The notes under the pieces: model-generated
Seen by the model: only the letters and a program-made list of their open reading frames with translations
Told to the model about the DNA's origin: nothing
The model's database searches: none
Shown here: in pieces, positions 6,695-60,517 of the stretch
Layout: each line of letters starts with the position of its first letter
Numbering within the stretch: the first letter of the stretch is position 1
Made by a program: the position numbers and the translations under genes
Source: Opisthorchis felineus
Taxonomy: Eukaryota > Platyhelminthes > Trematoda > Opisthorchiida > Opisthorchiidae
NCBI GenBank assembly: GCA_004794785.1
Contig: SJOL01007241.1
Location: 257,104 to 321,103 of the forward strand
DNA: 64,000 nt
Direction: 5' to 3'

Positions 6695-6835
6695 AATACA
6701 CTACTCATAAAGTTGCTGAAAACCCTTCGACAGCCCACGACCGGTTTCGCCCTTGTTGGGGCACATCAGGTAGGCACAGTCCCTAAGTTTCTGTCAACCT
6801 TATGTTCTACCTGGGTTTCAAAACCATATTGGCGT
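6695..6835 (-). mobile_element. R1 retrozyme-like element, partial copy
   Basis: On the minus strand it carries the R1 marks: AACATAAGGTTGACAGAAAC, the hammerhead region, and TTTTCAGCAACTTTATGAGT. It is flanked on the right by a plus-orientation R1 tail (GCAAATGAGTGTATTTTGG), so the locus is a rearranged or inverted pair. Confidence 0.7.
6733..6775 (-). ncRNA. Hammerhead ribozyme, type I, R1 class (damaged core)
   Basis: Stem I GCCUAC pairs with GUGGGC. The core reads CUGAUGU instead of CUGAUGA. Stem II is GCCC/GGGC with loop CAACAA, then GAAA, palindromic stem III CCGG, and UC at the cleavage site. The one core change probably abolishes or weakens cleavage. Confidence 0.65.
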
Positions 6836-6949
6836 GCAAATGAGTGTATTTTGGTGATGATCCAACGTATCAGACAAACCGTCCCGGAGTCATTTGGGCA
6901 TAAATGTCCAACCCTTAGTTTGAAGAATTTCGGTAGGTCAGGTGGCGTA

Positions 6950-7060
6950 GATGACAGTTGGTTTATTCGCTGAGCTGAAGAATTTGATTGCAAACGTTTC
7001 ATCACCAATTGAGGTGACATCATCAGTGCATTGTAAGGAAGCGGAGTGGATCGTACCGGT
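6950..7060 (+). repeat. M1 foldback-element fragment
   Basis: It shares GTTGGTTTATTCGC, TTGATTGCAAACGTTTCATC and a GACATCATCAGTGC segment with the M1 copies at 28.3 and 55.3 kb. Only one arm is clear here. Confidence 0.4.
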
Positions 7061-7672
7061 GAGTCAGTGGTTGTGCGCGTTGAATAGTGGTGCGTGATGA
7101 TAATATGCGTGCTGCTAGCCAGGACTGACCTTAGATCACGATTGGTTGTTCGGTCGTGTGGTTCTGTTGGCTGGTCTGTTATCCTATGTTGTGATTGGTC
7201 GGTGATCACGAGACCTTTGAGCTCCACCTCCCCAGCTCGCTTCCTCTGATTGGCAGGAAAGATTGGAAGAGGAGCGTCATGAACCCGTTCGGAAATATGT
7301 TAAGGACCGCATTTCGAAGGTGTACATTTTCTGGCATGAAGTGTTCGAAGTGATTTCTCGGTAGAGAATTCGATCAGGATGTATGACCAGTGATCTCTTC
7401 TGATGTGTACAGACGAAGTTTTGGGTGACCTATAAACATTCCTGAGTGAATAGTTTGGCACCAAATTGATTGATAGGGTTCATGGTCGAAATAAAACTTC
7501 GTTGTGCATTCGCAGTCAAAGTCGTTTCAATTTTAAATGGATCTTTTCCAGATAAGCCCCGCCAAAAAATTAACCCCCGCCACCCAAAAAAGATTAGAAA
7601 AAAGAGGATATGAAATTTGTTCTGAATAGTTTTTGAAGGTCTCATCTACTCTTCTCTTCTCATTCCGTCCAG

Positions 7673-8904
7673 GTGTTGTAACAGAAAATGCCGTCGCACC
7701 GGTTCGCTTGGCCTACATTCAAGTTAGAGACCCAGACTTCAATGGCAAGGACAAAGTTTCGTGTCAGCTGACGGACACTACAAACTTCTCCCTTGTCCCC
7801 GTGCGTTCAATCAACCTGGCTGATTTGGCTTATACTACTGGAGAGCATGATGATTCGAACAACGACTACATGCTTACTTTGTTGATCCAACCTGACAGGG
7901 AGCGCACCCCAGTGTTGCAAGTGCGGATAAAATGTTTAGACACCGTAGGAAACTCTAATGAACAAACCCTTCGAATCCGCGTATTGGACGTCAACGACGA
8001 AGTGCCTACCTTCACAAAGCCTATCTACCGATTTAGATTGTCTGAGAATACCGATTCAGACAGTACACTGCCAGTACGAGCCCCAAACGGATCCTTGGTA
8101 CCAGTAGGTCATCGAGTCGGCAAGGTGGTTGCTCACGATAACGACCTTGGTGAAAATGCCCATATTATCTACCGGTTAGCCCCTGATCGATTAGAGATTA
8201 CACCGGCGAATACGGTGGAAAACCACACCTTTTTACATGGAACAGATTCTTCTATCCGAAATACTTTTACCTACAGCTCATCAGTGATTGAACAGAAACC
8301 TACCGTAGAGGACCTGTTCCGAATCGATGAACAAACCGGGGTTTTGTACGCCCTCAAATCATTCGATGCGGAGAATGTGGCCGTTTTTCGTCTGAACGTG
8401 CTTGCTGTAGATCAAGCAAAAGAATCGGCTGCCTTAACTGGAACAGCTGAGGTGGAGATTCGTATAACCGATGTGAATGATTGGCCACCGGTATTCTACA
8501 AGACCAACGTGACGAGTGACGATGAAACGAGCCATACGGCGGCACATTCGGCTCCCGTGGAGTACGTTAGCAACTATGTGTTTCATGTCAGAGAAAATAA
8601 GCCCCCATACTGGTTGGTTGGTAGAATTGCAGCTGTCGATCCGGACATTGGTCAACGCGGTGCGAGTGATATCTCCACCACTGGTGTTCAACATTCACAG
8701 ATTAGTCTACAACTTGCGGGAGATTCAGAACCGGAGCTGCGTAAAACTTTCAGTGTGCATTCAACCAGTGGCTACCTGAGAACACGTGTGTCGCTGGATC
8801 GAGAGAAGCAGGCCGTATATGTGTTTAACGTGGTCGCGTGTGACACGGGGAATGAGGCGGGTCAGGAAAGATCCGCGACAGCCACGGTGACTGTATTTGT
8901 TGAA
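7673..8904 (+). CDS. Protocadherin-like coding exon 2: cadherin repeats 4-6
   Basis: Encodes residues 480-890. The first two bases complete the glycine codon left by exon 1, joining the start of repeat 4 across the splice. Repeats 4 and 5 end in DVNDEVPTF (near residue 585) and DVNDWPPVF (near 746). Repeat 6 contains VHSTSGYLRT and LDREKQ and runs to the exon end. The acceptor is CCAG at 7672 and the donor is GTAAGT at 8905. The exon ends in phase 0, immediately before the DENDNDPVF linker that starts the next exon. Together with exon 1 it gives six of the seven extracellular repeats. Confidence 0.9.
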
Positions 8905-9324
8905 GTAAGTACTGTCCACTCGATTGGACAAAGTTTGAAGCCATCTTTTCGCACTCTTCAGTTTATGTTGAATGCTACAGTGTGAGTACTACTTACTTTG
9001 GGATCCACCCAACTTTTCCGACTACTTATTAACACCGCAAAACTGGCGTAAAAACTCTTTCTGACCTCTGAATTTTAAACAGCTGGAGGTTTTCAATTTG
9101 ATTTGGGGCTACTGGAAGCAAGGTATCTGTAAGCTGCTCAGGTTTACCAAGAGCTAGTTGCAATTACCCCTCCTTCCAACAACCCTCTTCTCCCTAAATC
9201 GACCACGATTTTCATTCTTGAACTACCTTTCTATTCGTTGCGGTCAAAATTACAACCCCTTTCTCTAATCAAGGTTTCAATAGATTAGTCTGGCCTGTTT
9301 TTAGTTGAACAGAACATTAGTGTC

Positions 9325-9440
9325 TCAGGTTGGTAATGATGGCCGTTGGTTTGTTCGCTCAGCTGGGCAATCTGTTTGCCCACCTGGTTGTTCCAGTTTG
9401 GTTTGGCAACCAAAATTGGCGAACAAACTAACAGCCATTC
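9325..9440. repeat. M1-like foldback element
   Basis: GTTGGTTTGTTCGCTCAGC at the left is roughly the reverse complement of the right end (GGCGAACAAACTAAC), giving a hairpin of about 100 bases. It resembles the M1 arms (GTTGGTCTGTTCGCCTAGC) but is shorter and diverged. Confidence 0.4.
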
Positions 9441-10094
9441 TTGCCTGTGTCAATTCCGATAGACTTTCAGACTGGTACCGTCCCGCACAAACGTTTCTCC
9501 TTTTACCAATTTTCAGGTTCATGAGGAGAACAAAATGCGACCTTCTGTTGTTGAAGTAATATAGTCTAGCCAAGTTGTATAACGGAGTGTTTTTCTTCGA
9601 CGTGTAAATGTCGCTTACAACTGTGGGAAATTTGCACGCGAAATGTAGTCGAACAACCGTTAGAAAGTATTACACGTCACTACGCAACAAATGCTCCCTA
9701 ATTTATACAACTTCGAGAAATCGCTATCTGATTTGATCGAATCTAATTTGACATGGAATTATTACAGGGATGTCCGTTGTGACGGAAATATCACAATTTT
9801 CAGTAGCTATCCGGCTCCCATTAGCTCAAACTTCGTCTGCGGTATGCTTTCACATTCTCCATCTCAGACGTCGTTCCTCTGTCGGTGTTGCCCATATTTT
9901 CTTGAAATAACTCACTATTGATAAGGATGCTGAAACTCCGCAACATGCTAACCGGTTCTGTTCTGCTTGAGGCTCATCAAATCGATGTAGTCCACGAGTT
10001 TTCATCAACTTCTACCAAACTGGGCACAAATGGTGGATAAATTTACAAATGATGGATTTTGTAGAGTCTCTCCTTACTACCAAAGCAGTTTGAA

Positions 10095-10290
10095 AATGAG
10101 TGTATTTCACCGACCAATTAAAAGTTGGTGTTCAAGTGGAACACAGGTTTGACGGAAACCTGGAAAGTGGGTTTAACCGGTGAGCTCCAAGAAAGGTGAA
10201 ATAGGCTGTCGAAGTGTTTAGCAAACTTATGAGCAGTGAGTTATATAAAGAGAATCGAACATCGTGCCAACTGAAACATGAAGTGGTCTT
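10095..10290 (+). mobile_element. R1 retrozyme-like element, decayed
   Basis: It carries the R1 tail motif AAAATGAGTGTATTTCAC, then AGGTTTGACGGAAAC, a remnant ribozyme (GGTGAGCTCCAAGAAAGG, then TGAAA, then GGCTGTCGAAG with the CCGGUCGUG part lost), and CCAACTGAAACATGAAG. The ribozyme cannot fold. Confidence 0.6.
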
Positions 10291-12283
10291 TGTTCAAACT
10301 ATGATAAACCAGAGGTTCACTTGAGTACCCCCCGTTAACACCAAAGTAATTAGGAAATAGATGCATTTCGTTACCACTCAGCAATTGAGTGCGCATTTAA
10401 CATTCTGAATCACGAAGAAGGTCTGTTGGGACTGCATGCTTACACAAACACTCGTGTACAGTGCTCCACTGATGTTTTTTCCACTTACATGATCGATATG
10501 TGATCGATAAATGATCGTTATTCCGTGATGACTTGTCAGTTGATCAACTGGTGGTCCAGATATAGTGTCCGGTTCGTACTACTGCTCAGCCTCGAACAGA
10601 ATAAACGATCTGGTATATGTCCCTTGTGTTTTTGCCACCTCATTGAATCACAAGAAACTTGTGCCCGTCGAATGATTCTAGGGATTCGCACTTTATAGGA
10701 ACGAAACAGCTGTGAAAATGAGGACACTTTATGAAGTAGAGCGAAAGTGGACACAGCTGATAATCTGATCTGACCACACCTAGCGTTTCAACCCTAGTTT
10801 CCACCCTGGAATCTAGCTGTTTAGTTAAATGGATGCTCTGCTGATGAGAGAGAAATTCGCTCAGTTCGGAACTACCACTGAAAGTCGTTCGGTAAGTCAA
10901 AGAGTGTAACTCTTCTGGAAGTCAAGGCTCGTAATAGGGGTGATCCTATGAAATTCTGTGAAAGTGGTACGAATGCTCTGAAACGCAAACACTTCGGATG
11001 CGATATTCATTCCCTTAGTACGATCACCCACCGATTACGATCGAATTCGCTTGTATTTTTCAAAATCTTATTCGAGAGTGATAACTGAAATTTATTGATG
11101 AGTAGTTGTATTGAGCAGTCGGCCGGTCGGGCTACACGATGAACCGGTTCTCCGCGAACTGATGCTAGACCTCAGTGCTAGGTGAGCTCAGGGCTTTGTT
11201 TTGGTGTGCTGTTTTTAGGTAGTGGAGTGAGGCTTTACTTGATTGATTGATTGATGATTGGCTTGATTTCTACATCCCCATGGTCCAAGATGCCCATGAC
11301 ATGTAAGTTTGAGGCAAAACCGAAAAATACCGAAATTTGCACTGATTGTCCAACTGCATTGAACTGAATGCTTGTACGTTAATCGATGCTTACACAGCTG
11401 ATTCTGCGGCGCGAAGTATCTTTTAAACTGGGAAGCGCCACTAGCAATCAAAAATGAAGCGTCCCATCAACATTGTGGTAAATGACTTATGAAAATACAG
11501 CTCTATCGCATAATAATAATTAATTTGAAGAATCAATAATGCGAACTTTTTCCAAAGCTGCTGTCGAACGCAAACAAAAAAAGAACTATGTTGTCACTGC
11601 GAAGATCGAGAAAGTACATTACGTTTCCGTGTGGTGACTATGTTTTTGTAATCCGTGTTCTCATCAGGTTGTCGTTTGTTCCACAGCTGCTGCGTCACTT
11701 CAGGATAATGGTTATCCGATGTTTCAGTCAACTGACAGGTGATCGAAACCGCTCAAAGGCCCTGTGGAGAGCCAGTGATACAACCGACTACGCATTGCAG
11801 GATGCTTAGTACTTCCCGCACGTAAATAGGACAGAGTACACCATCGGGATTGGCGGAAACTGCAGTCTGTTTCGAAGAGCATTCTTCTGAGGAACGCCTA
11901 TAGTGAATTAATTTCTCCGGAAGATGTACATAAAGTAAACGACAAAATGTGGTCTCAATGATCCGCTGAAAATGGAAATTGATGCTATCTGAAATGGATG
12001 AGCTTCTGGCAGTTGGGTAACACATAGTTCAGGAGAGATATTGACTGAACCAACAGAAGGAACCTTCCTACTGTGAACGCCATGAGCTGGTTGAGTGTTG
12101 CTTGCGGCGCCCACTCATCTTCATTTTTTGTTTTAATGTCTCTCCGAATCCAAGAACTCCCGAGTGTTGTTGTTCTACTAAAATTCATCTTGTTTCTACT
12201 GGTCATACTCACTTGGGTGTTATCAATACCACAGCCGCCGGTTACAGATCCAGTTGTTCACCCTTTTTACAGGACACAAACTT

Positions 12284-12415
12284 TTCAAGTAGAACCTAAG
12301 GTTGACGGAAACTCGGGGGCTGCGCCTATCGGATGAGCCCCAAAAGGGTGAAACTGGTCGTGAGCTGTCGAAGAATTTTCAGCCACCTTATGGGTAGCGT
12401 GTTATGTCTAGAAAC
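12284..12415 (+). mobile_element. R1 retrozyme-like element, partial
   Basis: Contains the segment from TTCAAGTAGAACCTAAGG through the hammerhead to CAGCCACCTTATGGGTAG. The two ends are complementary (AAGGTTGACGG against CAGCCACCTT), so the ribozyme sits on an extended stem I. Confidence 0.7.
12324..12365 (+). ncRNA. Hammerhead ribozyme, type I, R1 class (damaged core)
   Basis: The stem I strands are GCCUAU and GUGAGC. The core reads CGGAUGA instead of CUGAUGA. Stem II is GCCC/GGGU with a short loop, then GAAA, CUGG and UC. The U-to-G core change should inactivate it. Confidence 0.55.
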
Positions 12416-14784: not shown

Positions 14785-15027
14785 ATCCAAAGGTAGATTT
14801 GCTCTCATTTGCTTGCTAATTTGGTTTTGTTTGGAGACTCAGCTGAATCTCTCGTTTACGATATTGCTCAGGTGAATGTGCTGTAAAAAGACCGCCTCAT
14901 GTTTCAGTTGGTACGACATTCGGCATATTGCAATATATTTTTACAAAGGAAGCTACTAACAAGGTTGCTGAAGACTCTTCGACAGCCTACGACCGGTTTC
15001 GCCCTTCTTGGGGCTCATCGGATATGC
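14785..15027 (-). mobile_element. R1 retrozyme-like element, minus-strand half of an inverted pair
   Basis: On the minus strand it reads hammerhead, GGTTGCTGAAGAC complement block, CCAACTGAAACATGAGGCGG, AGAGATTCAGCTGAGTC and CCAAATTAGC. It is followed directly by a plus-strand R1 copy at 15029. Confidence 0.75.
14985..15026 (-). ncRNA. Hammerhead ribozyme, type I, R1 class
   Basis: The core reads CCGAUGA (CUGAUGA with one change). Stem II is GCCC/GGGC with loop CAAGAA. GAAA is intact, palindromic stem III is CCGG, and UC is followed by GUAGGC. Stem I is weakened because the 5' strand has become CAUAU. Confidence 0.6.
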
Positions 15028-15028
15028 G

Positions 15029-15255
15029 CAGGTGAGAGATTCAGCTGGATTCAGTTGAGTTTCACGTCAAGACCAGATTAATATGTAAATGGGAGTAGTC
15101 GGAGGATCCCGTCTTATTTGGATTCAAGTAGAACGTAAGTTTGACGGGAACTCAAGCACTGAACCTATATGATGCGCCCCAAGAAGGGCGACACCGGTGG
15201 TGGGCTGCCGAATTTTCTTCAGTAACCTTATAAGTAGTGTGTTACGTTTAGAGAT
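15029..15255 (+). mobile_element. R1 retrozyme-like element, plus-strand half of an inverted pair
   Basis: It starts at GTGAGAGATTCAGCTGG, runs through AAGTAGAACGTAAGTTTGAC and a decayed hammerhead, and ends at AACCTTATAAGTAGTGTG. Confidence 0.7.
15163..15205 (+). ncRNA. Hammerhead ribozyme relic, R1 class
   Basis: Stem II GCCC CAAGAA GGGC is preserved. The core strands are changed to AUGAUGC and GACA, and the stem III palindrome to CCGG with GG after it. Predicted inactive. Confidence 0.45.
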
Positions 15256-17856
15256 TTGCAGTTTTATGTTCTGGGTCAAATGGAACAACTACAGAGTTGA
15301 GCCCTTGTGAATCAGAATGATCATAGAAAACGTTTAATGAGGAGAGTCAGTTAAGAATGACTCATTGAGAGTCCACTGCTGGGGTCCCTCGTAGAGTGCA
15401 ATCCTGTGCTGACTGTTTTGTTTGAAGTTTACATAATAACCAGGGCTTAGCAGCTGTTTGACTATTTAATAAAACTGTTACAGGCAAACGGTATCTTCGA
15501 GTGACGCATAATACCAGGACCTCCTGGAAGGTAAAACAAAGTCGAAGCTGGGTTTCTTTACGGTACAACAAATGGTCCACTTGGACTACAAAAGTACGAA
15601 CCAAATGAGCAAACGAGCTCCAACGTGAGACAGTCGCATGTGCATAAGGTCGGCCACAAAAATGGCTGAATGACCTCAAGGTCAAATGAGTGAAGTGGAA
15701 GGGACAAACAACGCCAGTTCATACGCACGCACTAAACACATAGGTGGAGCAGGGGTTACAGATAGGGACAGAAGAAACGTGGGGAACTACAAATGTCGAA
15801 GCAATGGACGATACAATAATGATTCCTGTATTGTTGTTTTATACTCAAAGTACTTTGTCCCCTCCCTGTGTGTTTATAATTCTATCAGCAAGACGTATTT
15901 TTTGCAGGGTGGTATACCCTCAGGAAACTCTTCTGAGCTTCAAATTATACCGTATAATTACTAAACGAAAAAGAACAATTGTTTACCTTGGGATATACCG
16001 ATATGGTGATCGAAAGTTGTGCTTCCGCCGAGGCAGTCGTTGGCTCTCAAGAGTTTTATTTGAAAAGGACTCATACGTAATTTCATTGGAACCGAGCCTG
16101 TGATGCGTTCCCATTTCCTGGACTAATGCCCATACGGTAATCTACAAGGGGTCACCACCGGAAAGCGAACAGTTCCAAAAGATGCATTGAACTCATTAGC
16201 TCCAGGACGACCGGACCGTTGTAATCTAGGCATCAGACACTCCCGGTGCGTTCTTGGTAAAGACCACCCATCAGTTCTAGAATTACCAAGACTGAAAGTC
16301 ATCAACGGTCCAGAATGATCACTAGGTTCCCTTTTTTATGTCAAAAGACAGTTTAAGTTATTCATATTCGCTTACAATAAGTGAGTGCGTTTTGCTCAGC
16401 TCAATCAATAAACAGTCAAGCACATCAACAGTTAGAGCATAATCCTATTGGCAGATGGCACAGTTGTCCTTGTGTCCTGTCGCTTCTTCACGTTACATTA
16501 TTCACGAACAATTACAAAAGCGTACATGATATTGCCTCGACAATCCTATCAACCATACCAGCAGTTCTATGTTGTATGCTGGTACTTCGGAATTATCCAC
16601 CGAATAAAACTGATTATTGATGCGAAAACGGACTGCGAATTCCGATTCAGCACCGGACTATTGTTCTACCGGCTGTGTACATCAGGTGACGTTTAGTTGT
16701 CGCTGATGTATGCCCGATTCACTAATGTGTAGTAATGGATTTTCTATGTCATTGTCTCCCATCAGTGCTCCCCTCCCCCATTCAAACCATTTTTCACATA
16801 TTTCCTATTCTTCGACACATGAAAAATAACATAATGGATTTTGAAGCACTCACGAGGCAGTTTTCATTCTACCGGGATGATACCACCATAATTGCCCGGG
16901 GTGCAAAACACGGAGCTATGACCATCAAAATTTGACCCAATCAGTGCAAACCAATTTGGGATGAATTGTTGTTCGATCTTTGGCCACAAATGACAGTCCT
17001 CAGTCAGCTCAGCTGTCGTTAAAGGGGACCATTCGAAAAATAGATATATTGTGATCAGTTTAGACGCTCAACATAACGGCTTCGTCCACAAACTCCCATC
17101 AGACGTCGGGCCACAATTTTACTTATTTAAATTCGAAACCTTTTTTGATGGCAAGCATCGACCATGGTAGTCGAAGCGAGGTGTCCTTTCTTGTTTGGTT
17201 GGGGACCGTCGAAAGACAGACACGTTTATCCTTTCATCCTTACAAACGAATTCTTTGCACTTTCAAAGAAAAGAGTTCACGTGATTCTTCTTGGTTGGAA
17301 ATCCAGCACAGCGTGATGCATGTTGTCACCTCTTAGCCGAACTACCTGGTCAAACGGTTCCAGTGTATGTTACCCTCGTGTACGGACGGTGTGTTGTCTG
17401 CATAGCGATAGTGTTTTTCGCTCTAGTGTGTTTATTCTAGTACCGATCGACCCCTCGATATCTGTCAATCATTTTCTCTATTCAAATAATGATCCTCGCG
17501 ATAAGTATCCACGCTTCGCGTTCGGGCGCACTCAACATTCAGTTTGGTGTTTCTGCTTCTGCTTGTTGAGCAGTATTAGTTACCACTGCTGTAGCACAGG
17601 TCGTGATCATCAAGATGGCTTCACAACCAAAGTGTAACCTTCAACGGAGATTTGGTCCTGTCAGTGGATCCAGGCTATGCTGAAAAACCGAGAAGAACTG
17701 TACAGCTTTTTTTATACCTTTTGGGTGAATGACGCTATATCCTGTCTAATTGCAAACTAACCACCCTGCTGATCAGCCGCTCGTGGTTGTGTTCAAACTT
17801 CCATCCAGGAGGTCGCGGGTTTAAAGCTCTCACTCCACTGGAGCTTCGTGAGATGC

Positions 17857-17901
17857 GCACTGTTGATGATTCCCAATAAGAATGAAACAGCTGTACAGTA
17901 C
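17857..17901 (+). ncRNA. Hammerhead ribozyme, type I, S2 class, unit 1
   Basis: Stem I GCACUG pairs with CAGUAC, with one mismatch. The core is UUGAUGA (one change), then a stem II with UUC/GAA pairs, GAAA, palindromic stem III CAGCUG, and UA at the cleavage site. It lies on the sense strand of intron 2. Confidence 0.65.
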
Positions 17902-18243
17902 TTCTCGGTCAGTCAACATGGCCTCACTTACAGGACGAAATCTCCACAAAAATTCCCAAATCTCCTCACACTCCTCACTACCAACAATCTATCAGTGGCT
18001 CAGTGGAAGAATAAACTTCACCCGATGAGTGAAACTTCCATCTGAGAAGTCGTTGCTCGAGGAGCCATTCAACACGTGTGACCCCGTGATGTGGATCCCG
18101 TGATTGAAGGATGAGCTGCGCTGTATCCTGTGTAAATGCGAGTTAGTCACACTGCTGATCAGCCGCTCGTGGTCGAACGGTTGTGTTCAAACTACTAGCC
18201 AGAAGGTCGCGGGTTCGAGACTCTCCAGAGTTTCGTGAGCTGC

Positions 18244-18289
18244 GCACTCCTGATGATTTTAAAATAAAGACGAAACAGCTGTACAGTGC
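18244..18289 (+). ncRNA. Hammerhead ribozyme, type I, S2 class, unit 2
   Basis: CUGAUGA and GAAA are both intact. Stem I GCACUC/CAGUGC has five of six pairs. Stem III is the palindrome CAGCUG followed by UA. Stem II has decayed to an A/U-rich, poorly paired segment, so activity is doubtful. Confidence 0.65.
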
Positions 18290-18774
18290 TTCCCGGTCTT
18301 TCAGCGCAGATTGGCTTCACTTGCAAGATGAAATCTTACTTGAAAATCTCGAATCTCCCCACACTACCATAATTTGAAGAAGGTGATTATTGAAGTCCAT
18401 TTACAGAGGCACTACTCACACCTTCCAACAAGGTGTGAATGATGTTCAAATTCCTTCCGCTTGTTTTAGCTTTCATGTAATGAAGCGCATTCCTCTTGGA
18501 AGGGAGACTGAAGGTTTATTGATCAAATGAGTAGAGATAGTGCCTGGAGCAAGTCTTGGTTTTAATTCATCTCGTACATTGAACGAAACCTGCAGATAAA
18601 TAGCAGCTTTTTGAGGAAGACGCGGGCGAGGTTACCCCGACAATGGAGATTTTGTGGTTGTTTTTTCAAAAGTTTGAAGTTTTTCTAGAGGTTACAGAAC
18701 AGACACAGAAGACTGATCGGTAAGAAGTTGAATGATTTTTTCAGTTCGAGAACACTAACTTCAGAAGTATGGAT

Positions 18775-19015
18775 AAAACTGATGATAAAACTGATAAAAT
18801 CGGCCGTGGGCCGTCGAAGAATTTTCAGCAACCTTATGAGTAGTGCATTGCGAATATACATGTATCGCGATATGTCGAATATCGTACCAACTGAAACATG
18901 AAGCGGCTTGGTGCAGCACATTCAGTTGCCTGGAAGCATCAGAAACGAGAGATTCAGCTGGGTTCCAGGTGAGCCTCCCGCGAAACCAAACTGGTTTGCA
19001 AATGAGTGTATTTCG
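18775..19015 (+). mobile_element. R1 retrozyme-like element
   Basis: It begins in a decayed hammerhead (CTGATGA near 18780, then AAATCGGCC and GTGGGCC). It continues through GAATTTTCAGCAACCTTATG, CGTACCAACTGAAACATG, CAGCACATTCAGTTGCC, GAGAGATTCAGCTGGG and GCAAATGAGTGTATTTCGC. It is a good copy of the non-ribozyme part of the unit. Many ribozyme differences are transitions. Confidence 0.75.
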
Positions 19016-19224
19016 CTAAAACTGGTGGATATTTTTTGGCAGTTGATACAGTCCGAGTTTTGAAATTTGAGTTCAGTCGGGAGCAGTCAGCCTACGCTCA
19101 GAAAGACCAACACGGCAGACGCGTCTTTATCTGACAAGTCATGGCTAGGTCAGCCAGCCAACACCTAATCACCTGACTCAAGCGGAATTATTGAGGGTCT
19201 GTGGGGTTTGGACTGTTTGACCTC

Positions 19225-19400
19225 CAGTGTGTCACGTGACAGATCCGTCACCCGTTTCTGAATGGCAGCATCCAGGGCGTTTCGAGTTCAGATTCGTGAA
19301 ACACCAACTGTTGATGAATCCCATTAGAAACGAGACAGCTACATATTGTTTCCTGGCGTGCCGACACAAACTCACTTCATTTGCAGGATAAAAAAATCCA
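19225..19400 (+). mobile_element. S2 element, decayed copy
   Basis: It holds CACGTGACAGATCC, a decayed B box (TTTCGAGTTCAGATTC), then ACTGTTGATGAATCCC, AACGAGACAGCTACA and a TTTCCTGGCGTGCC tail. These correspond in order to S2 with a broken ribozyme. It ends about 170 bp before exon 3. Confidence 0.5.
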
Positions 19401-20369: not shown

Positions 20370-20850
20370 CGTCAGCTACCTTGTGATAGTATACTGTGAT
20401 ACGTCGAATGTGATACCAGCTGAAACGTGAGGTAGTCTTTGTGCAGCAAGTTGAGTCGTTAAAGGCCATCATAAATGAGAGGTTCAGCTGGATTCATTTG
20501 TCTCCCCTCCAAACCAACTCCGTGTGCAAATCAGAGTAGTTGTCGAAATCTGTCCATTTGGGTTCAAATGGAACATATGGCTGACGGAAACTCGGGGACT
20601 GAGCTTAACTGATGAGCCCCAAGAAGGGCGAAACCGGTCGTGGGCTGTCGAAGAATTTTTAGCAACCTTATGAGTAGTGTGTTACGTCTAGACAGCAACA
20701 TATTGCGATATCTAGAATATCGTACCAACTGAAACATGAGGTAGCCTTTGTGCAGCACATTCAGTCGAAGAAGACCATCAGAAGCTAGAAATTCAGCCGG
20801 ATTCAGGCGATTCTCCAGTTGAAACCAAATTGATGTGCGGACTACAATTA
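20370..20850 (+). mobile_element. R1 retrozyme-like element, tandem dimer
   Basis: A partial unit is followed by a nearly full one. The CCAACTGAAACATGAG block and its diverged partner CCAGCTGAAACGTGAG are about 310 bp apart, which sets the unit length. The second unit holds one of the best R1 ribozymes. The first unit starts just downstream of where its own ribozyme would be. Confidence 0.8.
20603..20645 (+). ncRNA. Hammerhead ribozyme, type I, R1 class (both core strands intact)
   Basis: In order: GCUUAA (5' stem I), CUGAUGA at 20609-20615, stem II GCCC/GGGC with loop CAAGAA, GAAA at 20630-20633, CCGG, U, C at 20639, then GUGGGC. Stem I has five of six pairs including two G-U pairs. Stem III is only the palindrome ACCGGU, so folding should need a second copy. 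Cleavage is predicted after 20639, in sense orientation within intron 3. Confidence 0.8.
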
Positions 20851-40162: not shown

Positions 40163-40320
40163 TCGTTCAGCCGTACATGGCTGCCATGCCACACGAAGAA
40201 GGCACGAGGGCTGAGTTAGTACCACACTGCCCAAGGCTAGACGGCAGCAACCATGGTCAGGCTCGAACCCCGGATTTCCCGGTCACTGGCTTAACGCCAT
40301 AACCATCAAGCTACCTATGT
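40163..40320 (-). mobile_element. S4 tRNA-derived SINE
   Basis: Minus strand: GGTAGCTTGATGGTTATGG, B box GGGGTTCGAGCCTGACC, GTCTAGCCTTGGGCAGTG and GCCCTCGTGCCTTC. Confidence 0.7.
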
Positions 40321-43629: not shown

Positions 43630-43905
43630 CGAGCTACACTCATTTGCAAGTGAAGTTGGTGTTAATGAGAGACCCGACTGAATCACAGCTAAATTTGTCT
43701 TTTGTGATATTCTGTCACAGCTTACAGTGCTGCACGAGGTTTTCCTCGTGATTCAGTTGGCACGATATTCGAGATATCGCAGTATTCGGCGGAACACTAC
43801 TATTCGTAAGGTTGTTGAAAACTCTTTGACAGTGCACTACCAGTTTCGTGCATTCACGTGAATGGCTTGTCCAGTAGATTTTCAGCAACCTTGTGAGTAG
43901 TATAT
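43630..43905 (-). mobile_element. R1 element, inverted pair
   Basis: A minus-strand R1 unit (43634-43852) carries the complement blocks of GCAAATGAGTGTAGC, GTGCCAACTGAATCACGAGG and the 3' ribozyme part. It is followed by a plus-strand stub at 43853-43905 (GATTTTCAGCAACCTTGTG). The two halves can pair. Confidence 0.65.
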
Positions 43906-45300: not shown

Positions 45301-46496
45301 GCCTCCATGCACTGCTACGCCGAAATTCGGAGCCCCTTCTGGATCAAGGCTCAAACAGTTCAAGACTGGCTAGTCTCAATGAGTCCATCTACATGTCACG
45401 TGCATTCATGCCATCCAACTTTGCTCAGCCTGTGGGGAACACCACTAATAACGGCTTCTATCCAGGTCTGCCACGCAAAAGCATCCCGCAAAGTCCTCTC
45501 GCTAAGATGGTAACGAGGTCGATCACTCCATTCTGGGAACTGACCTCCTGTACGGACAATCGGGTCAGTGAATGTGCCGAACAACCAGGAATGACAGAAT
45601 CTACCATATGGAAACCCGTAAATCCCAACCCGTCAAACACAGTTTACCACATGGGCCCGCAAGTGTTTTCAAACCGGATCCCCCTTCATTCCCCACCAGA
45701 AGAAATCAAGTATCCTTGCGAAAAACTTACCAATGCTGCTTCTTACTTGGGAGCCTCTCCACCTCCGAGACAGGCGGGATTTCATCTACGGGGTGATTCT
45801 TTGCCTGTCTACGCAGAACAACTCAGCCCCCGAATGTCCACATCCGGAAAATGGCCCGCTTTTCATCCGGTTTTGGAACATCAACCCTACCAGGAGTTGG
45901 CAAACCTGACTGCAACACTTAGACGGCACAACTATCCAACAAGGTCTAACACTTGGCTACCACAAGACAAGGTGTTCAGTAACACTTTACGATCCAGTTC
46001 AAACGCGTATGGTCCCCTCCATCCATCACAGTATATCCTGACGCCACGATTCCATTACGCTAACGCTCAACTCAACAGTACCATTGGAAGGCCAACGTCT
46101 CCTTCCGCACATCCTTCCAATCCCATGCAATTCTACCGGCCTCCTAGTGTTTTATCTAGGTGCGATAATGGTTGCGAAGCAGGAGAGCGGAACGAAAACG
46201 AAGAATTGAAACTATCGTCCAGAGATTTCGACTACCACATGCCCGATAAAAATGACTGTATAAGTCCAACGGATATTACCAAACGAAAACGTGCTCGTGT
46301 GATGCTGGCTGACTTCGTTGAATGTGATCAGGTGGTTAGAACGATTGACAACGATGCTGAACAGCAGGAACAACATGACCTTGAAAATCCCACATTTGTT
46401 GAGTCTAATGACAGTCCCTCCCACAAGGTCAACAGTCCAAGCTATTCTCGCGCCAAATATGTATACGATGCGTACAGAGAAGCCAGTTTTGTTTGA
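45301..46496 (+). CDS. Protocadherin-like long cytoplasmic tail, alternative terminal exon
   Basis: The acceptor CGTTTTCCAG at 45300 is strong. The frame needs one base from the upstream exon. Exon 4 (27926) supplies it directly, so the tail would replace exons 5 and 6; the internal donor at 32511 would also fit. It encodes about 398 residues rich in Pro, Ser, Asn and His (for example HYANAQLNSTIGRPTSPSAH), then an acidic part, and ends EASFV, whose S-F-V fits a class I PDZ ligand. The length and composition suggest an intrinsically disordered signalling tail. It could also belong to a separate gene; the open frame of 1.2 kb makes coding very likely. Confidence 0.75.
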
Positions 46497-47562: not shown

Positions 47563-48751
47563 TTCTACTGAAACGATGACCCCTCAATCGGTTTCACACT
47601 TTTTCCAATTGACTGAAAACAACTCTGTACTCGTTTCAGCTTAAAATCTCTCGAAATCAAGTCAGGTTATCCTAGGGTTATTTAAAGCTGCCCCTTGTAT
47701 CACAGTCATTATCGTCTTTCGATATAACATTAAGGTATCCTGAAACACGAAACATTTGCCGGGTGCGCACAACACCGTGCATCTCCTGTCGGAATCCGCG
47801 ACTCCCGATTGATGCGTAGCCTGAGAGTACTCATGCACATACGCACCTTCCACTTAAAATGCGAGGCACAGATGACCTCGCTCTTTGCTTTCAGGTTAGG
47901 TGATGTGTCGCGGGTTAGCCGAAGCCAAGGGCTTGTCGCAATTCGTATTCGAGCAGGATCGAATAGGTTGATCCAATTCGAATTCGATGACCTACGTAGT
48001 CAACGAGAATGACCACTTATCCGATCCGCTGGTTCTCAAATATGTGATCGAAGTCTGGCCTTGCAGAAAGTGCTTCATGAGATAACGCACCCTCCTTCGG
48101 AACTCCAGTTGTATGTACTAGGACATTTCACGCACACTGGGTGTTTGACGTTTTCTGGGTTGCTTCTATAATTGTGATCTGAACAAAAACAAAATTCTCC
48201 AAGTCTCTTGTCCTTCATTCAGCGTGTTCTACAAATGTGAAACGCTATTACGATCGAAACGAGTTGAATACATAACCAACTCGTCCGCTAGAAAACCACT
48301 GTTAGTGGCTCTTTTCAGACATTTCTTGCTCGCTCTCTCTTTGATTCTATAGTGATCACGTTCTGAGTTGGCTTCATCAACCGAGTATGAGAATATTAGA
48401 CCCGTCTCGACTAGTGGACATTCACTTCAGGTAGTCTGAAGCAAGGTTTCGCGCACTTTAAAAATGGCTTCGACATACGTTGAGATATCTTTACATAATC
48501 CTGGTACAACCTAATATGATTTCGAGAAGCTTTAGAGTGAAAAATATAGAGATAGAGGATGATGGATATCTGGTAAACTTTATCCCTGTTTGCATCAATC
48601 GCGGTATAACGAATTCTCTATATCCTTGTTATTGGATAACTGATGGCCTGTGGAGTGTGCTCGAACAACTCTCAGTCGACCCTTCTGCGCCAAAGCTGCC
48701 TCATGAGCCAGCTGATACCATACTCATAATATTGAGCCACTTTTTTGGCAT

Positions 48752-48995
48752 TACTCACTACTTACAAGGTTCCTGAAAGCTCTTCGATGTCCCACGGCCG
48801 AATTCTTCCTACCAATAACACATTCATTTGAAGGACATCATACACGAGGGATTCAGCTAGAATTCAGCAGCTTAGTTTTCGAGTGGGTGTATTTGGTGTC
48901 CAAGTAGGAAATGAGGCTGCTGAAAACTCGGAGGCTACTTCCCCTGCTCAACCTTAAGAAGGCGAATCCGGTCGTGGGCTGTTGACGAGTTTGAA
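48752..48995. mobile_element. R1 element, decayed inverted pair
   Basis: A minus-strand stub (CTACTTACAAGGTTCCTGAA, then CCCACGGCC) is followed by a plus-strand copy with CACGAGGGATTCAGCTAG, GAGTGGGTGTATTTGG, TGAAAACTCGGAGGC and a broken ribozyme (GGCGAAUCCGGUCGUGGGC, near 48960-48980). Confidence 0.55.
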
Positions 48996-50789: not shown

Positions 50790-50910
50790 CTCAAATGCCA
50801 ACCGGAAGTTCTCCTTCCAGAGATGCACTCTGCCGATGGTTGTCAACAAGGGTAAAGCAGTCGTGCAATATTTCTCGGTTTTTCAGCAAGACCGAATTCG
50901 CTTGCGAAGG
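50790..50910 (+). mobile_element. S2 element, 3' fragment with broken hammerhead
   Basis: GATGCACTCTGCCGATGG, GTCAACAAGGGTAAAGCAG, then TTTCTCGGTTTTTCAGC. Core strands are altered (CCGAUGG, UAAA), so it is inactive. Confidence 0.5.
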
Positions 50911-52339: not shown

Positions 52340-52960
52340 AAACACACTCATCTGCAGATCAACTCGGCGTTAACGAGTGTCTCAAGTGAATCGCTACTTT
52401 ATGTGTTTTCAGCCACACTACAAGTAGTAGTAGGAAAATATGATTGTGATATCTCCAATATCGTATTAACTGAAACATGAGGTCGCGTTTCTGCGGTACA
52501 TTCAGTTGAGGGATATCATAAAAACGACTGATTCCGCTTGGATCCAGTTGAGTTGCCATGGCAACCAAATGAGTTTGCTAATGAGTGTATAAGGTTTCTG
52601 AAAACTGTTCGGTAACCTTATGGGGCTCAGTAATCAACTTTTCGTCAACCTAATGGTCAACTTCAGCTCAAATTGTACACACTTGGCGAAGCACGCTCGG
52701 TTGCAGACTAATTTGATCTTAACGGGAAACTAAGCTGAATCCCGGCTGAATAGCTTGTTCGTGGTATCCCCCAACTCAGCGTGCTACAAAAACGCCGCCC
52801 ATTTCAGCTGGTACGAAATTCTAAGTGTCGCAATATATTTGCTTGGTGGAACATACTACTTGTAAGGTTGCTGAAAACCTTTCGATATCAAATGGGTGTA
52901 TTTCGCCAACTCTTTGGTGTTCAAACAGAGTGGCGGAGCACATTCAGCTGGTGAAATGAG
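52340..52960. mobile_element. R1 elements, alternating inverted cluster without intact ribozyme
   Basis: Alternating minus, plus, minus and plus R1 pieces: a CTCATCTGCAGATCAAC stub, a plus copy with TATTAACTGAAACATGAGG, a minus copy with the complement of TTTCAGCTGGTACG and GGTTGCTGAAAACC, then a plus tail AAATGGGTGTATTTCGCC. The arms could form a long hairpin. Confidence 0.6.
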
Positions 52961-54317: not shown

Positions 54318-54450
54318 GGAATACTACTCATTAGGTTACTGAAAAACCTTGGACTACTCATCACTGGCTTCGCCATTCTTATGGCTGATCAGGTCAGCGC
54401 AGTCGCCGAGTTTCCGTCAAACTTACACTCCACTTGAACATCAGTGTAAG
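54318..54450 (-). mobile_element. R1 element with decayed hammerhead
   Basis: Minus strand: TTCAAGTGGAGTGTAAG, TTTGACGGAAACTCGGCG, a relic core (ACCUGAUCAGCC, then UGGCGAAGCCAGUGAUG), and CAGTAACCTAATGAGTAG. Confidence 0.55.
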
Positions 54451-55263
54451 ATCCGGGGAGCGAAGGATCTCACAGGACGATCGCAGCTATCGGACCATAC
54501 GCAGTTCGTTTTCAGTGGGCAGTAGGAACAGACGGACGAGGGCAGTGGATGCTGTTTCGAGAACTGCCAAGAAATGACTGATCAATAATAGCACAATCGG
54601 TAGGAGCAGAGAAATGGTCAGTGAAGCAGCAGAGCTTTGGATACGGGTAGTCAGACAGTGTAAATTGGCGGTATACAGAGATGGCAGCCCAGAAAACAAT
54701 CCGTACGTTCGGGAGGTGAGACACTCTCTTTGGCTGACGGCCCGATGCAGCAGCTGGTGTCACGTACCAAATCCGATTGCGCGCTTAGGTCCGTTTAAAA
54801 CGAATCTCAACAAAGGCCGTCTAGCGCTCCCTTAGGCATTGAGTTGTTGGAGCGGATGACACGCTCGCCTGATTTCGATCCCCGTCAGGTCTGTTTTTCC
54901 GTCAGAGCAGACATTCGAAAATAGGTAGAGCTGACACGAACTTGCAAGCGAAGACAGACAGGCAACAAAATCTTGACATCAGTTACTAGGCCTTGAGCAG
55001 GAGCAAAAACCCGGGGAACGAGCAGCAAGGAAACGAAACGGCGTCTTAATAAACGGGCGTTAATCATGCTAATCATGTGTAGTCAGAACAGAAAAGAAAG
55101 ATAACCGCTGATCACTGTTGATTCACAGGAGGAATCAACAATCACATTGTACGTAATGGTGTGCAATAGCTGTTTCGGTGGTTGCGTCGTTATACAGAGA
55201 TGTTTTCGTGACAATTAACCCTGTTTGTTGGTACTCACGCGGATTAGGCTAAATGAAGACACC

Positions 55264-55434
55264 ACTTGGCTGTTGGTCTGTTCGCCTAGCTTGGCAGTTG
55301 GATTGCAAATGCTACATTACCAATCGAGTTGACATTGTCAGTGCGGGGTTGAGTGACTGACGATGTGCCCTAGACTGGTGATGAACCTTTTGCCATCTAA
55401 CTGCCAAGCTCGGTGAACAGACCAACAACCAAGC
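55264..55434. mobile_element. M1 foldback (MITE-like) element, best copy
   Basis: Left arm: CTTGGCTGTTGGTCTGTTCG, AGCTTGGCAGTTGG. Right arm, inverted: AACTGCCAAGCTCGG, GAACAGACCAACAACCAAG. The arms are about 45 bp with few mismatches around a centre of about 80 bp (GACATTGTCAGTGC). Non-coding. Confidence 0.7.
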
Positions 55435-56339
55435 AGCGCACCCGGGCTACCTATATTCCGCAGCTTTGATTCCTACTAACCTAGATGATGACCGCCATAA
55501 TAATCCCTAGATTTATTGATATCAGTTCAGTCTTGTTCACTAAGTGGACATTTCATTCTCGAATCAGACTCGCACTTTGACAGACTCGTGAAAAGACGTA
55601 AAAAAGCGAGAAGTCGGTGCGACAAAACGACGGGAGGTTGCTTGGTCGACGAAGAGATTTCTGGTTGTCTCATCTAGACATTTTTATCAACCACAGTTTT
55701 GGGTGTGTAAATAATAGCTTGACCGGCGCCTCACAATTCCACACCACAAATTCCGTTTTTGGAGTCACCGAAATAATGAAAATCTGTGGCACTGGACTGG
55801 ACTGTTCTAGCACATGAATGGGACCAAACTAGTTGCTAGGAGTTTACAAGAGAGAAGACATTGACACCGGAACTTGAGTCAATGATCGTTTGTTATAAAG
55901 GGGTACATCAACAAAAATCGACCAATCCGAAAATTGAGGGGTATCAGCAAAACAATGTTAACTTGCAAGGTCAGAGGTTCCGGTACCGGTGATTGGATGC
56001 TTGAGATGCAGAGCATTGGTATGTGGTTAGGGCGAATGTTGTGAACCTGTGTGAACATAAGAATAGGACAGAAAGCGACAGTTATTGCTGGCATACCTGT
56101 GTGAAGCGTCCGAATGTTCTCACCTGGGCAGCAGTTCTGAACGACGTGGAAACGAGAGATTATTTTGGCCCAAGTGGACTTCTGCTCAGTACGGTTTGAC
56201 TTGACCCCGAAAGTGCGAACAGGTGACAGAATCGAAATTGCACGTAAGACTAACTGGTCGGCTGGGTCAGGTCATTTGCGGCTGAAAACAGTCTAATGCT
56301 GCGGCAGAATATCAGGTGATACCTATGAGAACGTACTTT

Positions 56340-56665
56340 AAAGTGCCTGTTACTCGATAAATCTGGGTCCGTCGCTTCGTTCAGTTCTACGCAAGGTGAT
56401 TTGCTTGACTGAGGGGTGCGTGGCGCTTTATCTTGTATAGATACGAGGTAATCACGATGATGAAAAGCGAATATTGGCCAAACGATGTAGACCTCAACTA
56501 CTAGCCAGAAGGTCGGAGATTCGAATTGCCCTAGATACGCGTGAGATGTGTACTATCGATGATTCCCAACAAGGATGAAACATCCGTACAGTGTGTCCCG
56601 TCTTTTAGCGCAAGTTGACTTCACTTGCAAGACGAGATCTTGATTGACGCTTTCATTATGGTGAT
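56340..56665 (+). mobile_element. S2 element, nearly full unit
   Basis: GGGTGCGTGGCGCTTTATC, GATACGAGGTAATCACG, CAACTACTAGCCAGAAGG, B box GGAGATTCGAATTGCC, a hammerhead, then TTTTAGCGCAAGTTGAC and AAGACGAGATCTTG. Confidence 0.7.
56549..56594 (+). ncRNA. Hammerhead ribozyme, S2 class
   Basis: UGUACUA, UCGAUGA (core changed at two positions), stem II UUCC/GGAU with loop CAACAA, GAAA, CAUCCG, UA, CAGUGU. Stem III has lost its palindrome. Probably inactive. Confidence 0.5.
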
Positions 56666-57659: not shown

Positions 57660-58060
57660 GATCACTACTTATGGTTTGCTTTTGAAGAGCGCATGATCAG
57701 CAGTGTGATTCACTCACATTTAAACAGGATAGAGCACCACTCATCCTTCAGTCGGAAGATCCACATCACGTAGTCAGGCCTGTTGACTGGCTTCTCGAGC
57801 AAGGACATCTCAGATGGTTTCACTCATCAGGTGAATTTCATTCTCCCTCTGAGCTGCTTATAGATTGTTGGCAGTTTGAGAAGATTCTGGAATTTTAGTG
57901 GGGATTTCATGAAGCAATTCCATACCGAAAAAAACGAGAAGCCCTGTACAGCTGTTTCGTCTTTATTGGGAATCATCGGCAGTATTTACCCCACAAAAGT
58001 CCAGTTAGCAATCTTGAACCAGCTACCCTCCGGCTAGTAGTTTGAACGCGGGTTACTTCA
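57660..58060 (-). mobile_element. S2 element, more than one unit in tandem
   Basis: Reading the minus strand, a tRNA-like part with CTAGCCGGAGGGTAGC and a hammerhead is followed by the body, then the 5' segment of a next unit: GCTCGAGAAGCCAGTCAAC, CTGAAGGATGAGTGGTGC and CACACTGCTGATCATGC. That order (3' end, then 5' start) shows head-to-tail tandem units. Confidence 0.7.
57941..57985 (-). ncRNA. Hammerhead ribozyme, type I, S2 class
   Basis: AUACUG, CCGAUGA (one change), a weak stem II (UUCCCAAUAAAGAC), GAAA, palindrome CAGCUG, UA, CAGGGC. Its 3' core strand and stem III are the consensus. Confidence 0.55.
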
Positions 58061-58639: not shown

Positions 58640-58970
58640 GCCTTCAAAACATTAAGATGACTTCTGTCTCATGGGTTGATTGTATACAGTCCGAATGTCA
58701 TTCTCTTCTGGGTTTGGCGAGTGCAACATTTGTACGAGAAAGTTAGAGTCGATTACGCTAAAACTGAGTTGAGGAATGTGGTCAGATGAACCCAGCAAAA
58801 GTGTGGTTAACATGTTGCCCAGACACTTCTTTGTCAGGAGGTTGTCTAGTTTTTTTAGAACGAAATGGCCAGAGCACACCAGTCTAACACTTGCTGACAG
58901 GATTGTAACGACAAGTCGTCTCCGATTCGTGTTGTGTGCTTGTTCCTCGCGTTTTTTATAAGGCATGATC
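58640..58970 (-). pseudogene. Possible LINE endonuclease fragment
   Basis: The minus strand encodes KKLDNLLTKKCLGNMLTTL, then LLGSSDHIPQLSFSVIDSNF. The GSSDH block followed by hydrophobic residues resembles the C-terminal SDH motif of AP-type LINE endonucleases. No other block is visible, so this remains tentative. Confidence 0.3.
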
Positions 58971-59083
58971 GTCGAGTACTATCTGATTAGCATATACGTA
59001 TTTTGTAGAATGCATACTCACATGACTCTCGTTTGAACAGTCGTCCTCCAGTCATCCTGGTGAATCCACACCAAAGGAGGGAA

Positions 59084-59128
59084 GCACTGGACTCGAGTCT
59101 CGCTCTTATTAGAGTTCATCAGCAGTGC
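59084..59128 (-). ncRNA. Hammerhead ribozyme, type I, S3 class, downstream unit
   Basis: GCACUG, CUGAUGA, stem II CUC/GAG with loop UAAUAA (flanked by A and C), GAGA in place of GAAA, palindrome CUCGAG, UC, then CAGUGC. Stem I has six of six pairs. The A14-to-G change in the core is the only visible fault. Confidence 0.75.
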
Positions 59129-59512
59129 ATATCCAATGACCGTGTCGGGGTTTGAATTCCGCACATCTAACATGCGAGGTGGGTGTGTTACCATCACTCC
59201 ACGCCGGATTCTTCCGAATTTTTACGTCTGAACAGGTGAACACGTTCGCGTTTGAGTGATGTGAGCGGAACTTGCGAATACTCGAACGACGACCCAGTAA
59301 CATACCTTGGTTGTGTCGATCGGCTGGCCCGCCAGTCAGGACTTCCCAGTCAGGTAGCGCCACAGACGCTTGAAACCTGCTGGACACATTTGGTTTCAGG
59401 TGTTGGTGGTTGCGAGATTTTGTAGAACACATACCCACATGACTCTCGTTTGAACAATCGTCCTCCAGTCCTCACGCAATCATCCTGGTGAGTCCACACC
59501 AAATGGGGGAAA

Positions 59513-59557
59513 GCACTGGACTCGAGTCTCGCTCTTATTAGGGCTCATCAGTAGTGC
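59513..59557 (-). ncRNA. Hammerhead ribozyme, type I, S3 class, upstream unit
   Basis: GCACUA, CUGAUGA, stem II GCCC against GAGC with loop UAAUAA, GAGA, palindrome CUCGAG, UC, CAGUGC. It shares the GAGA change with its partner 429 bp away. Confidence 0.75.
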
Positions 59558-60517
59558 ATATCCAATGGTCGTGTCAGGGTTAGACCTTATTCGACCGTAT
59601 TCGTCATCTACAAGCCGAAACGTTGACGTGAAAAACACAGATAGTGCTTTGATTTAATCATTTTTATAAAGAAAATGATTAACTAGAAAGGATGGTGTTT
59701 ACCACACACATCAAAAATGACGTTGATTAGTGGAAACCATATCGTACAGGGTTGTGGGCTCAAAAACACACCCAACAGTCACTGATGAAATCCAAAAAAA
59801 GACGGTAGTAATCAATAGATGATCATTCGATCGACCGAATCACTGAAAGGCGGTGCTTTTCCACTTTGCACACAGCTCGTTCTCAGCTATCAGTGAATCA
59901 AAAGCCTTCCAAAGTCCACTTCTTCTGATGTACATTGCCCTACCTTCATGATGAAACTGAGAATACTGGGGGAAAACAAAGCAGGATTTACGCTAAATTA
60001 CACCAGTTACTAGCGGCATGTGGATGCAGTTTGTGTCCGAGATGTGGATAAATATGTGATCTAGCCTGAAAAATTAGAGCTATTCCTTCCTTCTTTACAA
60101 ACTGGAGACGTATTGGAATTTTTCGAAATCAAAATGCTGTACAATCGATTACGATTGCATGATCGGCATGAGAAAACCAATTCGCACAAGTACTGAGCTT
60201 TCAAAGACTGCACCTCTGTTAGTTGGCCGGTGGTTATTCACATGAGGCAAAATGCGAATCTGTAAGATCCCAAACACAAAAGTCTAGTCCGATCAAATTC
60301 AACACAGTACCATATAGCATTGATAGAAAACTTTCTCATTTGACAATAATCTAATGTTGGAATTCCTCGGCATCAGAGAAGGGAAGCAACAGTTTTGGGG
60401 AACTGGACTCCCATCAGATTAGTTACGGAGCATAACGATAGATTTGTGAAACGAAGAGAAACAAGCGAGCGCAAGAACTCGTGGCAAGAACTGAAAGACT
60501 GTCAACACGAAATCAAT

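Follow-up and report, generated by a model that had tools for sequence, protein, structure and literature searches.

This locus raises the question of what kind of repeat carries its many hammerhead ribozyme motifs, and how such repeats came to be there. The window, by which we mean the whole stretch of 64,000 nucleotides (nt) that was analysed, belongs to the trematode Opisthorchis felineus (assembly GCA_004794785.1, contig SJOL01007241.1, positions 257,104 to 321,103 of the forward strand). It holds three repeat families, R1, S2 and S3, whose members bear type I hammerheads and lie partly in protocadherin introns, partly in the 17.5 kilobases (kb) that follow exon 45264-46496 of that gene. 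Our data indicate that these families are likely to be non-autonomous retrotransposons of the retrozyme or Sm-alpha type, with an RNA that is predicted to cut itself and that would reach new sites through target-primed reverse transcription, for which the enzyme would be borrowed. The anatomy of the R1 insertions is the most informative part of the evidence, and it was not met in the literature searched, as far as the available portions of those sources go.

Three hammerhead families and the controls against chance

To map the families, the window was compared with itself and the copies were aligned to their units, which measure 307 nt in R1, about 386 nt in S2 and about 420-430 nt in S3. The majority motifs all follow the type I order, and read GCCTAC-CTGATGA-GCCC/GGGC-GAA-ACCGGT-C-GTGGGC in R1, GCACTG-CTGATGA-TTCC/GGAT-GAA-ACAGCTGT-A-CAGTGC in S2 and GCACTG-CTGATGA-helix II-GAA or GAG-ACTCGAGT-C-CAGTGC in S3. 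In R1, 21 further pairs are possible beyond stem I, which gives a long rod. A strict descriptor accepted one fully intact motif in the window (35368-35414, + strand) and none in 15 shuffled windows. With up to one core mismatch it accepted three window motifs against one hit across the 15 shuffles; when two mismatches were allowed it returned four window hits (one spurious and exonic) and one hit in 5 of the 15 shuffles, and thus no longer discriminates. The R1 fold has 85.6% of its cells paired as compared to 35-48% with the partners slid, and the joint fold of S2 and S3 has 78% as compared to 36-57%. Models built from the families find 26 motif-length hammerheads in the window, and partial or interrupted relics lie near 18.8, 30.7, 31.0, 42.1 and 43.8 kb. 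It is confirmed that the three hammerhead repeat families are real and go beyond chance.

A sequence-only reading of this DNA had proposed three classes of repeats with stem I pairing beyond chance and had likened their type I hammerheads to those of schistosome Sm-alpha elements and metazoan retrozymes; the three classes and this likeness are supported, and the motifs do exceed chance. It had counted about 20 motifs or relics; these are present, and their number is nearer 26-31. It had also called the three units unrelated. This has to be qualified: S2 and S3 share the stem I GCACUG/CAGUGC, so that their ribozyme modules are not unrelated, and the family models cross-detect one another's copies, including those of R1, even though self-comparison at an expectation value (E) of 1e-4 gives no match between S2 and S3 outside this module. 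The R1 model finds 14 motif-length R1 copies (12 in its training set, the other two at E 4e-13 and 8e-10) and, untrained on S2 and S3, both copies of the S3 tandem pair (8e-5 and 3e-4), along with four S2 copies at weak scores (0.01-0.04). The joint S2/S3 model finds ten S2 copies (eight trained, the weakest at E 0.001) and two S3 copies (both trained), and also detects R1 copies on which it was not trained (best 1.1e-4).

In the covariance-model check proposed by the same reading, Rfam at gathering scores reports zero hammerheads in the window; at E <= 10 hammerheads make up 11 of the 14 Rfam matches (best E 0.00022), and the family-built models find their 26. Among Rfam families, one S3 and one S2 copy match Hammerhead_1 best, a family whose consensus helix III is likewise loopless and palindromic. 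RNAalifold does not draw the hammerhead motif, in which helix III is loopless.

Two candidate interpretations were rejected. Chance motifs were ruled out by the descriptor against shuffles, the slid-partner pairing and the family-model hits. The presence of intact hammerheads in most window copies was ruled out as well, as the strict descriptor passes just one.

Covariation was also examined. Helices II and III have changed in a compensatory way between S2 and S3, with a covariation score matched in 2 of 500 shuffles (10 related rows only). The R1 window copies show no more covariation than their shuffles, which is what the decay of copies of a single source would give. These results bear on the idea that intronic hammerheads are retained here to regulate the protocadherin pre-mRNA, as has been proposed for amniote intronic hammerheads. 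The copies are indeed intronic and downstream, and one window copy is intact; against this, they occur on both strands, are mostly defective and decay without covariation, which leaves such a role exceedingly improbable.

R1 in the genome and the anatomy of its insertions

The host genome (630,098,494 bases in 1848 contigs) was searched with the R1 window copy 29331-29711, and 40 of 7006 first-look candidates were scored. All genomic R1 counts given below refer to the 39 best-scoring loci outside the window, which were selected by likeness to that one copy. They contain 76 R1 motifs matching at least 32 of the 43 letters of the window majority; 72 of these have ACCGGT and 60 are complete, that is, with both cores, an H17 that is not G, stem I at least 5/6, helix II at least 3/4 and helix III 3/3, although this intact share is not representative of the R1 family as loci and motifs were both selected by likeness. 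The genome-wide look that the sequence-only reading had suggested thus gave, for R1, paired stem I and an intact core. The majority of the genomic motifs is identical, letter for letter, to the window majority. Same-strand spacing is 307 nt in 27 of 27 cases, with up to four motifs per strand, and the 26 natural units lying between exact cut-site motifs are all 307 nt long with a mean identity of 99.1%. The near-identical units and the complete motifs show that R1 has a young set of copies. Judged from its sequences, R1 is a young retrozyme-like family with complete ribozyme sequences, of which the window holds mostly old copies. At gathering scores Rfam release 15 reports no hammerhead in the 12 of the 39 loci that were submitted (L009-L020), though intact R1 motifs are there; the curated models at these scores miss intact R1 in those loci.

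Metazoan non-LTR (long terminal repeat) retrozymes are described as tandem repeats of 150-450 nt with a type I hammerhead and low guanine-plus-cytosine (GC) content, with target-site duplications of more than 4 nt when present and with several families per genome (PMC7229834, in the part consulted). R1 matches them in its type I hammerhead, its tandem 307-nt unit, its low GC and its duplications of 10-14 nt (PMC7229834). Six of the 26 young units were folded as circles; they have a GC content of 0.46-0.47, below 50% as in metazoan retrozymes, and beat their shuffles with z-scores from -2.4 to -5.1. These six are 63-64% paired as compared to more than 70% for retrozymes in PMC4918200, and the old window unit folds like its shuffles.

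The scars of insertion are more telling. Exact target-site duplications of 10-14 nt occur in 13 of the 39 loci, as compared to 2.5% of random same-locus pairs (at least 10 nt). In 10 of the 13 the duplication spans an inverted R1 piece and the main copy together, and therefore both most likely arrived in one event. The inverted piece stands on the 5' side in 21 of the 39 loci and on the 3' side in none. The window gives a similar picture, with seven head-to-head pairs (five of R1, one each of S2 and S3) and one tail-to-tail pair; the random mean for head-to-head pairs is 0.18, and seven were reached in 0 of 20000 simulations. Twin priming during target-primed reverse transcription, a hallmark of LINE-1 (long interspersed nuclear element 1), yields such 5'-side inversions. 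The 5'-side inversions together with the duplications are the signature expected of target-primed reverse transcription for R1. A Penelope-like enzyme, which extends both strands (PMC11167929, in the part consulted), might by analogy be an alternative source of the inversion pattern.

The same scars bear on whether the repeats could be satellite DNA spread by recombination, with the hammerheads as passive passengers. All three families have tandem pairs and there are many broken copies, as such an origin would have it. The dispersed R1 copies, with duplications of 10-14 nt enclosing the main copy and its 5'-side inversion, largely refute it for R1, and the nesting of R1 in S3 and the 60 complete motifs among 76 speak against it too, so that a satellite origin is very improbable.

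The ends of the R1 insertions fall at preferred places. The main copy ends at unit position 147-162 in 26 of the 39 loci and starts at 71-75 in 24 of them, and other 3' ends form a second group at 287-302 (L009, L011, L017, L021 and L025). Insertions of 383-399 nt, about 1.27 units, make up 15 of the 39. In the window, the 5' starts are not significantly clustered (P 0.44), the 3' ends are weakly clustered (P 0.003), and a second cluster of 3' ends at unit 298-302 is formed by 6685-6813, 12284-12412, 15034-15252, 24321-24424 and 34021-34453.

In a different origin, R1 would be a terminal repeat with a hammerhead that became detached from a Penelope-like element and is amplified by the enzyme of that element. 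A terminal redundancy of about 80 nt is seen in the 15 of 39 insertions that measure about 1.27 units and in those of 2.27 units at L010 and L016. Penelope-like hammerheads are alike in their minimal helix III, tandem arrangement and proposed dimeric cleavage, and the priming of their enzyme on both strands counts as a further likeness (PMC11167929). The difference is that no reverse transcriptase or GIY-YIG endonuclease, and thus no Penelope coding part, was seen in the 50 of 64 window open reading frames (ORFs) tested, and that in intact R1 arrays one 307-nt unit directly follows another, with no insert the size of an ORF between them. On balance, descent from a Penelope terminal repeat seems unlikely.

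Dimers, the proposed life cycle and its weaknesses

Each of the majority motifs has as its helix III a palindrome of 6-8 nt, which can be read as three or four loopless pairs; a monomer keeps at best one (R1) or two (S2, S3) of these pairs under a palindromic tetraloop. By eye, the exact palindrome is kept in 9 of 16 window copies of R1 (ACCGGT), 4 of 9 of S2 (ACAGCTGT) and 4 of 5 of S3 (ACTCGAGT). Unconstrained dimer folding of the majority motifs gave a double hammerhead for R1 with R1, S2 with S2 and S3 with S3, but not for any mixed pair (three folded); the gain over two monomers is 4.1, 5.9 and 8.7 kcal/mol respectively. Natural window copies were folded too (12 of the 16 R1, all nine S2 and two of the five S3 copies; most of those omitted are without part of the motif, and one R1 copy near 9.9 kb was also outside the set). 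The double fold appeared in 13 of 103 same-family pairs (R1 11/66, S2 1/36, S3 1/1), in 6 of 23 self-pairs and in 0 of 150 mixed pairs.

Similar helices are known from other animals. Most invertebrate retrozymes cleave efficiently and the amphibian ones best as dimers (PMC7229834). R1 differs from the former in that its helix III is of the amphibian type; the axolotl motifs need dimers for good cleavage (PMC7229834). The R1 majority helix III, one pair with a palindromic tetraloop, is like that of axolotl Amex1, and those of S2 and S3, two pairs with a tetraloop, are like that of Amex2, with which the S2 majority also has a U.U mismatch in helix II in common (PMC7229834). The dimeric hammerheads of mosquito and sea anemone likewise have a palindromic helix III and loop III, so that two copies pair fully (PMC3088659, in the part consulted); here three different palindromes coexist in one locus.

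The life cycle that we consider probable for R1 would begin with the transcription of tandem copies. The RNA would cleave itself as a dimer, predicted to form best within the same family, and the cleaved units would be ligated into circles. An enzyme borrowed from a LINE or a Penelope-like element would then copy the RNA into new sites via target-primed reverse transcription. S2 and S3 may share this life cycle, as suggested by their window copies and a small genome sample. A more specific version is offered tentatively, as one possibility that is itself rather doubtful: both cut DNA strands would prime on the hammerhead RNA and so give the inverted piece on the 5' side, the template would be over-length, uncut or recircularised, and the families would be kept apart by their own helix III palindromes, with active dimers forming only among their own kind.

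A number of observations weigh against the retrotransposon interpretation. The predicted cut site, at about unit position 248, matches neither end of the R1 insertions. Therefore the ends are not set by the ribozyme, and the template must have exceeded one unit or have been a circle that was copied for more than a full turn; over-length uncut RNA may have been the R1 template. The common 5' start could be partly due to selection, as the query window copy itself begins near unit 68. An exact 10-nt duplication is absent from 26 of the 39 loci, and in the window duplications of at least 8 nt flank just 3 of 20 R1, 0 of 12 S2 and 0 of 4 S3 copies (random 1%). Microhomology at the inverted junctions reaches P 0.03, but the alignment absorbs homology and the control unit was matched only 61%. 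The absence of direct pairs from the window count is due in part to the treatment of direct neighbours as single copies. Pfam domains of reverse transcriptase or GIY-YIG were absent from the 50 of 64 window ORFs of at least 95 amino acids that were tested. The failure of mixed pairs to fold is partly trivial because the palindromes differ. Both motifs of the S3 tandem pair have GAG in place of GAA, the basal pair of helix II is non-standard in seven of the eight aligned S2 motifs, and S3 has a GC content of 51%. Finally, the circular folds of the window units of R1, S2 and S3 have z-scores of 0.2, -0.1 and -1.0, that is, they fold like shuffles.

The evidence on S2 and S3 comes from the window copies and a 200-kb genome sample (163,660 non-N bases). 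Each family has one tandem pair in the window with a type I hammerhead, at 388 and 429 nt, which is within the 150-450 nt of retrozymes. The sample contains 8 places of S2, 3 of S3 and 5 of R1, and so all three families are dispersed in the genome. Eleven distinct hammerheads were found in it at E <= 0.05, eight via the S2/S3 model and three more via the R1 model; one S3-like hammerhead has GAA and four helix II pairs. Rfam at gathering scores reported zero hammerheads in the 14 of 20 sample stretches submitted. R1, S2 and S3 cover 6.5%, 3.8% and 1.3% of the window; in the sample their shares of the non-N bases are 0.5%, 1.0% and 0.4%. Thus the high local density claimed earlier does look several-fold above the sample, but the R1 and S2 probe units are window-derived, a copy from the window served as the S3 probe, and the window was chosen for these very repeats.

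The SINE-like (short interspersed nuclear element) Sm-alpha and Sj-alpha elements and the hammerhead-bearing W-elements of schistosomes are likewise trematode repeats with type I hammerheads (PMC2770079, PMC8490949, both in the parts consulted). A head derived from transfer RNA (tRNA), as in Sm-alpha, is only hinted at in S2 and was not seen in R1, and the likeness is one of description. A- and B-like boxes lie 35-43 nt apart in 5 of 8 S2 copies, with one A box complete, and two R1 controls score nearly equal. Neither ARAGORN nor Rfam found a tRNA; at a very low threshold ARAGORN gave 436 hits, which is noise.

R1, S2 and S3 are new families, and genomes with several hammerhead families are already known. 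The sequence-only reading had singled out three classes side by side, at such density, as the most unusual property; that several classes in one genome should in itself surprise is not supported. The three families are not new in kind because several per animal genome have been published: a coral has sixteen and axolotl two (PMC7229834), and in Schistosoma mansoni hammerhead-like sequences are carried by four families of W-elements (PMC8490949), with about 38,500 hammerhead candidates also reported for that species (PMC2770079). In the open-licence literature, titles and abstract openings on hammerheads in Clonorchis, Fasciola and Opisthorchis included none describing R1, S2 or S3, and no listing linked a hammerhead ribozyme with twin priming. 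Duplications with 5'-side inversions were not met in the description of metazoan retrozymes, within the part of PMC7229834 consulted. According to the consulted part of a 2020 review (PMC7761336), metazoan retrozyme repeats have no conserved motif telling whose transposition machinery is used, and the R1 insertion scars bear directly on that question. The near-identical R1 units (26 intact, 99% on average) with their complete ribozymes would allow the order of cleavage, circularisation and insertion to be tested. Since the dimer palindromes differ among the three families, these also provide a natural test of own-kind recognition among ribozymes.

Copies in the window, the host gene and other repeats

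About 20 fragments of R1 lie in the window. The copy with the strict-descriptor motif is 35133-35561 (+, 1.4 units). The copy 29331-29711 (+, about 1.2 units) has a hammerhead with one core change at 29474-29520 and an inverted piece on its 5' side (29115-29295, -). Of similar length are 20390-20838 (+, 1.45 units, hammerhead at about 20599-20655) and 34021-34453 (-, 1.4 units), whose two hammerhead motifs have predicted cut sites 311 nt apart. Two pieces of 129 nt, 6685-6813 (-) and 12284-12412 (+), contain the hammerhead rod. Head-to-head pairs occur at 14804-15252 (14804-15031 -, 15034-15252 +), with hammerheads in both members and AGATTTGC at each outer side; at 9894-10356 (9894-10009 -, 10053-10356 +), with degraded hammerheads; at 48698-48992, degraded; and at 43635-43901, with a partial hammerhead. 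In the pair 52405-52938 (52405-52590 +, 52624-52938 -) the 3' ends face each other, without a full hammerhead. The piece 18797-19024 (+) begins just upstream of the predicted cut site and is flanked on both sides by TAAAACTG; 24321-24424 (+) has a hammerhead and 54323-54439 (-) a degraded one. The piece 30636-30719 (-) lies within an S3 hammerhead, with an 11-nt target-site duplication, GAAACTCGAGT.

The S2 tandem pair 17723-18365 (+) has hammerheads at 17843-17915 and 18230-18303 with predicted cut sites 388 nt apart, and an inverted S2 piece (17646-17725, -) on its 5' side. Single S2 copies are 23660-23941 (+, hammerhead 23835-23907), 42549-42827 (+, 42757-42829), 56389-56640 (+, 56536-56608) and 57687-58047 (-, 57927-57999). 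Hammerheads are degraded in 38429-38687 (-), in 32800-33004 (-, at 32887-32960) and in the piece 50815-50888 (+), and 19290-19393 (+) is a weak S2 piece. The S3 element 30530-30950 (-) is the one split by the R1 piece, and a second S3 piece (31018-31120, +) stands head-to-head with it. The S3 tandem pair 59000-59600 (-) has hammerheads at 59070-59142 and 59499-59571 with predicted cut sites 429 nt apart, and the piece 42029-42133 (+) holds the 3' half of a hammerhead.

The long ORFs of the window are exons of the protocadherin gene (917-46496, +), with Pfam cadherin domains in the exons 917-2407, 7630-8985 and 27035-28024. Three joined exons match a protein of Opisthorchis viverrini at 95%, with 99% of the searched region covered, as compared to 42-56% for other flukes. 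Pairwise, the compared exons match the O. viverrini protein at 91-92%, and exon 45264-46496 extends to its C-terminus. The protein matches thus make an opisthorchiid liver fluke the very likely host.

One R1 copy compared with a plasmid collection gave no match, and no relatives were found for an ORF of another window repeat. A dispersed, SINE-like repeat of up to about 175 nt occurs in both orientations at 493-667, 25088-25262, 31879-32052, 37665-37748, 40181-40248 and 60520-60679, and gave no hammerhead hit with the R1 or S2/S3 models. A further repeat family (28263-28470, 55259-55456 and 6957-7029), two copies of which match their own reverse complement, resembles miniature inverted-repeat transposable elements. 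The 55-nt stretch 37099-37153 shares 98% identity with its reverse complement and has the look of a small foldback element; it belongs to a 146-nt repeat with a second copy near 63.4 kb (63373-63489).

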